Assembly (NCBI GenBank): GCA_947167235.1 | Contig: CAMVHF010000008.1 | Location: 1-36,415, forward strand | Direction: 5' to 3' | DNA from: an uncultured Alphaproteobacteria bacterium | GTDB taxonomy: Bacteria; Pseudomonadota; Alphaproteobacteria; RF32; CAG-239 | Length of the DNA: 36,415 nucleotides | Part shown: piece by piece, positions 8,618-11,545 of the stretch | Layout of the letters: each line of letters opens with the position of its first letter | Numbering within the stretch: the stretch's first letter is position 1 | The notes under the pieces: generated by a model | Told to the model about the DNA's origin: nothing | Database searches by the model: none | The model's input: only the letters and a program-made list of their open reading frames with translations | Position numbers and translations under genes: made by a program

Positions 8618-8656
8618 TTGTAATGTTGTTAAACTAAATTATTGGAGAAATTTAAA

Positions 8657-8935
8657 ATGACTAAAAATTATAACGAAAACTACATTCGTGAAGCTGCTTA
8701 CTACAACTGGCAAAATGCAGGTTGTCCTTCCGGACAAGATGAATACTTCTGGAATCAAGCAATTTGCCAACTTTATGGTTCTAATTCTTCTTGCGGTTGC
8801 TCCAAGAGTTCTTCTTCGAAATCTTGCTCAACAAAGTCAAGTTCTTGCTCAACTAAATCAAGTTCTTCTTGCTCAAGCAAAAAATCTTCTTCTAGTTCTA
8901 GCTCTTCAAGCACATCCAGCAAAAGCAAGAAATAA
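8657..8935 (+). CDS. DUF2934-like small protein with Ser/Cys/Lys low-complexity tail
   Basis: ATG 8657 after ggag; N-terminus YIREAAYYNWQNAGCPSGQDEYFWNQAICQL resembles DUF2934 (from memory); tail of Ser/Cys/Lys runs; promoter and terminator flank it. Confidence 0.75.
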   Translation: MTKNYNENYIREAAYYNWQNAGCPSGQDEYFWNQAICQLYGSNSSCGCSKSSSSKSCSTKSSSCSTKSSSSCSSKKSSSSSSSSSTSSKSKK

Positions 8936-9081: not shown

Positions 9082-9423
9082 CTAAGCAACATCCAACTTA
9101 TACAATACGCTTTCTAACTTCTTGGTCGTCGGAAGCGCACAATCCATAGATGTCACAACACACGCATCCCCGCAGCGTTCCACATAAAGCGTCAAATTCG
9201 CTCCGGTTGTCACGGCTCGAAGCCATTTGGCATTTTTGGAAGAATGCGGAATACACATCCTGAAGACCAGACGTTGTTCTTCGGGATATGTATAAGTAAT
9301 TTTTTTGGGCCTGTTAACCGTAAACGAAGTCACATCAACATGGATGAAATAATCATCTCTGGCATTGGATGCAACACGCACGGCGATACCTTTTAAAACG
9401 GCATAAATTTTTTTCTTAGCCAT
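9082..9423 (-). CDS. Hypothetical protein (about 113 aa)
   Basis: Open frame with own terminator; no family recognised; MAKKKIYAV start preferred over MTMAKKK. Confidence 0.6.
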   Translation of the reverse strand: MAKKKIYAVLKGIAVRVASNARDDYFIHVDVTSFTVNRPKKITYTYPEEQRLVFRMCIPHSSKNAKWLRAVTTGANLTLYVERCGDACVVTSMDCALPTTKKLESVLYKLDVA

Positions 9424-9522
9424 AGTCAATAATGATTAAATTCTACAATAAATATTTAAATGATTTTAATTTAGAGGGATTGTATCAAATATGGTCCTAA
9501 ATGTCAATATTTTAGTGTAATC

Positions 9523-9812
9523 GCACAGCGTACGAGGAAAGCTCGGATAATGCGTTTAATACGATAGTTCGTCCTTTTGCGCGGTGTACAGATTAATCCT
9601 CGTAAACTGCTTAGAATGCGTCTAATAGAAAAAGGTTTTTTCCCGCGGTGTACAAAACAGTAAAAAACAACAGGCACAGCGTACGAGGAAAGCTCGAATA
9701 ATGCGGTTAATACGCAGAAAGTCCTTTTGCGCGGTGTACAGATTAATCCTCGTAAACCGCTTAGAATGCGTCTAATAGAAAAAGGTTTTTTCCCGTGGTG
9801 TACAAAGCAGTA
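9523..9812. repeat. Tandem repeat, two copies of a 150/151-bp unit, each made of two related half-units
   Basis: GCACAGCGTACGAGGAAAGCTCG at 9523 and again at 9674; AATGCG anchors at 9549, 9615, 9700, 9765; (C)GGTGTACA at 9583, 9647, 9733, 9797. Confidence 0.9.
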
Positions 9813-9858
9813 CATAAGGGAAAAAACCTTTGATTAGTAGACCGTTATAAGCGGTTTA
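9753..9858 (-). terminator. Long hairpin / probable rpsA terminator formed by repeat half-unit and its inverted partial copy
   Basis: Perfect 14-bp AAAGGTTTTTTCCC (9781-9794) / GGGAAAAAACCTTT (9818-9831), plus perfect 11-bp TAAACCGCTTA (9753-9763) / TAAGCGGTTTA (9848-9858); on the minus strand the inner stem is followed by UUUU. Confidence 0.7.
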
Positions 9859-9862
9859 TTAA

Positions 9863-11545
9863 TTAGTTGGCTTTTTTCAAAGCTTCACCCAAAGCCTCTC
9901 CGAGAGAAGAACCAGAAGCGGTGTTGGAATATTCTTCCAAAACTTTCTTTTCTTCATCTAATTCAAGAGCTTTAATAGATAAACCGATTTTAACATTCTT
10001 TTTATCTACGGAAGTGATTTTAGCTTCAACAACATCACCTTCTTTGAAGTTTTCCGGATTTTGAGAAGCTTTATCTTTAGAAAGATCAGCTTTCTTGATA
10101 ACGGCGGTTAAACCTTCAACATCAACGGTAACACCTTTGTCGTCGGTAGATTTAACGATAGCTTTAACAACTTCGCCTTTTTTCAAGTTAGCCAAAGCTT
10201 GAGAAACATTGTCTTCGGACAATTGTTTGATGCCCAAGCTGATACGTTCTTTTTCAACATCAACATCGATGATTTTAGCTTCGATTTCTTGGCCTTTAGA
10301 ATAATCTTTAACAGCTTCTTCGCCGGATTTTTCCCAAGAAATATCAGACAAGTGAATCATACCGTCGATTTCATCTGTCAAACCGATAAACAAACCGAAT
10401 TCGGTAATGTTTTTAATTTTACCGGTAATAACGGATCCGACCGGATGTTCTTCGATGTAAGCGGCCCATGGGTTAGGCATACATTGCTTAATACCGAGGC
10501 TGATACGTCTCTTATCACCGTCTACTTCGAGAACGCGAACGGTAACTTCTTCAGAAGTAGAAACGATCTTACCCGGATGAACATTTTTACGAGTCCAGCT
10601 CATTTCGGAAACGTGTACCAAACCTTCGATACCGTCTTCCAATTCAACAAACGCACCGTAATCGGTAATGTTGGTAACTTTACCTTTGTAAACTTCACCG
10701 ACTTTATATTTATCGGCAACAGCTTGCCACGGATCGTTTTCAAGTTGTTTCATACCCAAGCTGATACGTTGTGTATCTTCATTAAAGCGAATGACTTGAA
10801 CTTTGATTGTTTGACCTACTGTCAAAACTTCGGCCGGATGGTTAATACGTTTCCAAGAAATATCGGTAACGTGTAACAAACCGTCAACACCACCCAAATC
10901 AACGAATGCGCCGTAATCTGTGATGTTTTTAACAACACCGTCCAGAATAGCACCTTCTTTAATGCCGTCGATTAATTCGGCACGAGCTTCGGCTCTGGTT
11001 TCTTCCAAAACGATACGGCGAGAAACAACGATGTTGCCTCTTACTTTATCCATTTTCAAAATTTGGAACGGTTGAGAAATACCCATCAACGGAGAAATAT
11101 CTCTGATCGGACGAATATCGATTTGAGACCCCGGTAAGAAAGCGATGGCACCGTTCAAATCAACGGTGAAGCCGCCCTTAACGCGACCGAAAATAACACC
11201 GTTAACACGTTCGCCGGCATTCATAGATTTCTCTAAGTCGGCCCAAACTTCTTCACGGCGGGCTTTTTCGCGAGACAATACGATATTACCGTCTTTGTCT
11301 TCATAGCGATCAACCAAAACTTCAACAACATCACCGACTTTCAATTCAGCATTGGTGCCGAATTCGCGAACCGGAATATTGCCTTCGGATTTCAAACCGA
11401 CATCAACGGTAACGAAATCCGGTGTAACTTTAACGATAGTACCTTTAACGACACTGCCGAGAATACCTTTATCACCGAATTGTTCATTTAACAAATCAGC
11501 AAAGTTTTCTGTCATTTCCGGCATTGTAAATTCTGTATTAGACAT
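9863..11545 (-). CDS. rpsA: 30S ribosomal protein S1
   Basis: 560 aa with multiple S1 domains (ITDYGAFVDLGGVDGLLHVTDISWKRINHP, ITDYGAFVELEDGIEGLVHVSEMSW). Confidence 0.98.
   Translation of the reverse strand: MSNTEFTMPEMTENFADLLNEQFGDKGILGSVVKGTIVKVTPDFVTVDVGLKSEGNIPVREFGTNAELKVGDVVEVLVDRYEDKDGNIVLSREKARREEVWADLEKSMNAGERVNGVIFGRVKGGFTVDLNGAIAFLPGSQIDIRPIRDISPLMGISQPFQILKMDKVRGNIVVSRRIVLEETRAEARAELIDGIKEGAILDGVVKNITDYGAFVDLGGVDGLLHVTDISWKRINHPAEVLTVGQTIKVQVIRFNEDTQRISLGMKQLENDPWQAVADKYKVGEVYKGKVTNITDYGAFVELEDGIEGLVHVSEMSWTRKNVHPGKIVSTSEEVTVRVLEVDGDKRRISLGIKQCMPNPWAAYIEEHPVGSVITGKIKNITEFGLFIGLTDEIDGMIHLSDISWEKSGEEAVKDYSKGQEIEAKIIDVDVEKERISLGIKQLSEDNVSQALANLKKGEVVKAIVKSTDDKGVTVDVEGLTAVIKKADLSKDKASQNPENFKEGDVVEAKITSVDKKNVKIGLSIKALELDEEKKVLEEYSNTASGSSLGEALGEALKKAN

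Follow-up and report, generated by a model that had tools for sequence, protein, structure and literature searches.

Among the closest described systems to the element reported here are the Correia repeats (CREE/NEMIS) of Neisseria, likewise dispersed hairpin elements of about 100 bp. CREE have TATAG inverted ends, and the mechanism that mobilises them has been reported as undetermined (PMC2649163). No such ends were found here, and copies of the present family are anchored at stop codons and lie on one strand. REP and BIME sequences, which are associated with RAYT, also form many palindromic copies in 3′ UTRs and mosaic arrays, but the hairpins described below are much longer, and their conserved head is not that of REPs. 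Rickettsia palindromic elements, RUP, ERIC and CIR are hairpin repeats of roughly 100–200 bp as well (PMC2229807); they are not known to show stop-codon anchoring or arm swapping, both of which are features of this family. Intrinsic (rho-independent) terminators share with it a hairpin and a U-run past the stop codon, and it occupies the place of the plain terminator found in most relatives. Unlike such terminators, it is 113 nt long, has four helices and a conserved asymmetric head, and is dispersed with shared stems and orphan 3′ halves. We found no description of this hairpin family in the literature searched, which covers few subscription journals.

The array behind rpsA

The window, the whole stretch of 36,415 nucleotides analysed here, comes from an uncultured alphaproteobacterium. 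It carries rpsA on the minus strand (9863–11545), identified as ribosomal protein S1 by its reading frame and six S1 domains in Pfam. The stop codon of rpsA abuts a complete hairpin of 113 nt with a type A stem (9747–9859), which begins a few bases past the stop on the same strand and runs in the order 5′ arm, head, 3′ arm. Both its fold and a covariance model match of 106.6 bits delimit it, although it is itself one of the 62 copies used to build that model. The 5′ arm (9818–9858) has an outer part that occurs nowhere else in this genome or in that of the sister species. It is followed by the head, TTATGTAC-TGCTT-TGTACAC-CACG (9794–9817), common to relatives, and by the 3′ arm (A1, 9754–9793), which ends in TTT only. 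Behind the hairpin, still on the minus strand, lie three orphan 3′ halves: one with a type B stem (CAAAAGGACTTTC; 9674–9753), which is the stem type of the complete rpsA hairpin in the sister species G008, one with a type A stem (9604–9673) and one with a type B′ stem (CAAAAGGACGAACTATCG; 9523–9603). As in the complete hairpin, only TTT (UUU) follows the stems of these halves, and a consensus scan found no U-run on the minus strand. Right behind the array begins a promoter-like site, TTGACA-17-TACAAT (9479–9507, minus strand, 11 of 12 consensus bases), followed by the next ORF (9082–9429, minus strand), 115 aa long and without a Pfam match. On the plus strand, positions 8642–8935 hold a 97-aa ORF with a tail very rich in serine and cysteine (SSCSTKSSSSCSSKKSSSS); in the genome G014, rpsA seems to be followed by a coding stretch resembling it.

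The initial annotation had described this region as a tandem repeat. Its two near-identical units at 9523 and 9674, with their shift between 150 and 151 bp, are indeed present, as are the inverted arms TACGAGGA/TCCTCGTA and the related half-units. With no more than one mismatch allowed, the window contains the block GCGGTGTACA six times, where 1.3 occurrences would be expected; the repeat accounts for four of the six. The 150-bp repeat itself consists of the 3′ half of the hairpin together with the three orphan halves (types B, A and B′) and amounts, on the minus strand, to an A–B pair, repeated. The inverted piece at 9818–9858, taken at the time for a degenerate half-unit, is there, but it is the 5′ arm of the sole complete hairpin; what had been overlooked is that a single long hairpin, read on the strand of rpsA, is anchored at the stop of that gene and trailed by truncated 3′ halves. 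A 103-aa ORF had been judged merely to read through the repeat. It has no Pfam match and the same reading ends after 14 codons in the sister species, and a protein-coding repeat was rejected on these grounds.

A dispersed family of hairpins

The same annotation had suspected a structured dispersed element rather than a gene, and both a search for copies and the base-pair changes bear this out. BLAST with the repeat found matches on seven other contigs of the same genome (E ≤ 1.8e-6), and relatives have copies too. The head pattern GTGTACAN{3,9}GTACATAA occurs 19 times in this genome against none in a reversed control, and it is present in 23 of the 56 genomes searched. A covariance model built on 62 complete hairpins from the genus matches 28 places in the genome (about 28 copies). 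With this model, copies were found in all seven sampled genera of the family and two in another genus of the order, while 23 genomes from other families of the class gave one weak match.

Several further observations concern the surroundings and the make-up of the arrays. In the genome G000, arrays lie near the ends of five contigs (C10, C11, C23, C103 and C126), where the repeats are a probable cause of assembly breaks, and the assembly may lack further copies. Another dispersed repeat, of the GTCATTCTTG..GAGAATCTCGGC type, adjoins the arrays at L033, L061, L096, L101 and L134. A second type of head, TCGTGTAC..GTACACGTCG, with a stem type of its own (AAATCCCCC), occurs at L265 (rpsA of G002) and in half-units at L035 and L092. 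In three genomes (G015, G024 and G029), many model matches fall directly before or within the N-terminal part of genes that by reading resemble pilins (GRSMIEMLGVLAIIG); those at L309, L318, L325, L326, L329, L333 and L335 are perhaps a protein-coding palindrome.

Several known kinds of element were considered and rejected. Rfam covariance models at gathering score place no family over the repeats, which speaks against a known Rfam RNA, and viral contigs and phages gave no match, which speaks against a phage or viral origin. An integron attC-like site had been prompted by a TCTAAC box and was dropped, since the box is not conserved between copies.

RNAalifold on the family gives 34 pairs, 26 of them with changes on both sides. 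Because copies were picked by their inner stem, that part is biased, but the 15 outer pairs played no part in the selection. In these, pairing cells make up 94.4%, compared with 74.9 ± 0.8% after shuffling, 188 cells show double changes against 55.8 ± 6.9, and the covariation score is 0.558 against 0.200; the signal is destroyed when the partners are slid by 1–3 columns. In the relative G021, the head is compensated (TGTAG/CTACA). The family is real and strong as a set of structured, dispersed, stop-anchored hairpins of a group of gut bacteria.

Placement at stop codons and probable role at gene ends

The genus has 69 full hairpins, and 56 of them start close to the stop of a sense ORF, at −11 to +8 nt from it, with a mode of +2; a single one of the 69 shows the mirror arrangement, with the stop on the antisense strand. 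The genes upstream are mostly core genes (rpoA, rpoC, nusG, rplA, rpsA, rpsD, eno, pgk, dnaK, ileS, mutL, kdsB and nadE). From its C-terminal sequence, we take a further carrier gene to be tuf. Past the stem, the longest T-run is 5 in the median and reaches at least 4 in 60 of the 62 copies. At the level of the family, these features are those of an intrinsic terminator: a stable hairpin and then a U-run, in the sense direction, after a gene. Termination is therefore a likely function of most copies of the genus, judged from their sequences. The window copy carries TTT in place of a longer U-run, and hence its reading as a terminator is drawn from the family.

At the rpsA locus, the element is present in 8 of 20 members of the genus, in two clades, a distribution for which 2 changes on the tree suffice. 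Where it is absent, most species have an ordinary terminator instead, and a few have no clear one in our test. We also considered that the element had been inserted into the loop of an ordinary terminator and dropped this idea, because ordinary rpsA terminators lie farther from the stop and have different stems. In another genus (g3), the hairpins are not anchored at stops and the copies shown have no U-run, so that termination cannot be the sole role of the wider family.

Swapped stems and units shared between loci

Stems differ even between close species, whereas the presence of the element at rpsA needs so few changes on the tree. In our genome, the order at rpsA is A-B-A-B′ and the 5′ arm matches A; in the sister species G008, the order is B-A-B′-A-B′ and the 5′ arm matches B. 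The loci rpoA, kdsB, rpsD, rplA and an outer-membrane gene show comparable reversals. Reciprocal swaps are seen in six ortholog pairs. We compared 146 ordered ortholog pairs with differing proximal stems, which are not independent given that the species are related. In 22 of them (15.1%), the distal halves at the locus in one species include the proximal stem that the other species has there. When locus labels were shuffled, this was the case for 5.0 ± 1.9% of pairs, and none of 5000 shuffles reached the observed value. Stop-proximal heads pair with their own 5′ arm practically always, and most distal halves are unpaired; the few low-scoring "proximal" heads look like halves within arrays beside spurious ORFs.

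A stretch of 65 bp in the full unit at rpoA of G008 recurs without any difference in a half-unit of the kdsB array, and does so in both species. The 5′ arm of this rpoA unit has no second occurrence in either genome. Units are thus shared between loci, with the matching arm arising in place or coming from a donor since lost; the genomes being drafts, such a loss is possible. By eye, one half at tuf resembles what a deletion between GTACTA repeats would leave of a full copy. The 5′ arm also has features (TTA and CTAC) not expected from plain copying of the 3′ arm. Fold-back template switching could write a 5′ arm but should erase these asymmetric features; gene conversion would preserve them but requires a donor.

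Possible relatives in other phyla

We searched 84,980 species genomes with the head pattern TTATGTACN{4,8}TGTACACYGCG. The matches listed come mostly from alphaproteobacteria of gut, rumen and ponds, but also include Moraxella, Alysiella, Pasteurella testudinis, Neisseriales, Burkholderiales and an Elusimicrobiota genome. Nearly all of them lie within hairpins, whose stems differ. The covariance model finds 84 copies in Moraxella, 36 in Alysiella and 40 in the Elusimicrobiota genome, numbers that are only partly independent since these genomes were picked by the head. The head, TTATGTAC-N-TGTACACYGCG, sits in stop-anchored hairpins of the Elusimicrobiota genome, where each of the 15 readable copies has it 41–72 nt past a sense stop, and a T6 tail is present in most of them. 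It was found in 7 of 150 Elusimicrobiota genomes, often in two of them, and not at all in the control. In Moraxella, the orientation of copies is mixed. The head is also part of Correia-type repeats of Alysiella: the element at L204 fits the published CREE patterns (PMC2649163) and carries TTATGTACTATGTGTACACTGCGG. Alysiella and Moraxella elements with this head have TATAGT inverted ends. By comparison, the window gave no match to two of the four published CREE patterns (PMC2649163) at up to 3 mismatches. Descent, transfer and convergence are each possible sources of the shared head.

Discussion

We put the probability at about two in three that these hairpins are dispersed, strand-specific RNA 3′-end elements, copied and exchangeable, and mainly terminators. 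In an mRNA, the element directly past the stop codon folds into one hairpin with four helices and the conserved asymmetric head. The U-run at the end of most copies would make it the transcription terminator of its gene, and the hairpin should additionally shield the 3′ end of the mRNA. Units are copied between loci and duplicated in tandem, with a matching 5′ arm kept solely by the 3′ half next to the stop and displaced halves persisting as orphans. Whenever the proximal half changes, the 5′ arm would be rewritten to match, presumably by fold-back template switching or gene conversion.

Protection of the 3′ end or effects on ribosomes (PMC12306157) may be added roles of such an element, or a rival account of it. 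That paper, citing its ref. 17, reports that REPs near stop codons slow ribosomes or block 3′ exonucleases. If it lies no more than 15 nt from the stop, a hairpin might likewise slow terminating ribosomes or stop exonucleases, with termination a by-product; the mode of +2 nt, the UUU of the window copy and the g3 copies shown without a U-run favour this view. The retention of at least 4 T after the stem in 60 of 62 copies and the plain terminator at the same place in most element-free relatives speak against it, and we regard a translation or mRNA-stability element as the less likely account, if still a possible one. It is rather improbable that the arrays are static, ordinary terminators that have merely diverged and undergone local tandem duplication by no special process. 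Terminators close to stops are common and (AB)n arrays do resemble plain tandem duplication, yet whole stems change together between sister species, an identical unit occurs at different loci and the head hardly varies from phylum to phylum.

The identical unit at two loci, together with the patchy spread across phyla and the TATAGT ends of Alysiella and Moraxella elements with the same head, could come from a MITE-like DNA element of Correia type, moved by a transposase and found after stops merely because insertion is tolerated there. Tolerated insertion, however, predicts both orientations, whereas 56 hairpins against 1 follow the sense strand; the window lacks TATAG ends for the two of four CREE patterns tested, and the rpsA locus is inherited in place. 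Nor does our genome encode a RAYT/Y1 transposase. Neither it nor the copy-rich G001, G008 and G017 contain Y1 (PF01797), and a RAYT-mobilised REP was rejected. We consider a transposase-moved element unlikely. A broader proposal is tentative and also fairly unlikely: mobile RNA/DNA hairpins marked by the head would cross phyla, settle as the 3′ ends of genes and, wherever they arrive, rebuild their 5′ arm using the 3′ half, orphan halves recording earlier occupants and Correia repeats forming a DNA-transposon-like branch.

A terminator is usually viewed as a fixed signal private to each gene. If these hairpins are indeed exchangeable 3′-end elements, the core operons of a whole bacterial family would share a copied hairpin in which replacement of one arm goes with that of the other, and past terminators would become readable as a record at each locus. 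Correia repeats would, in turn, gain a structural relative in distant phyla.
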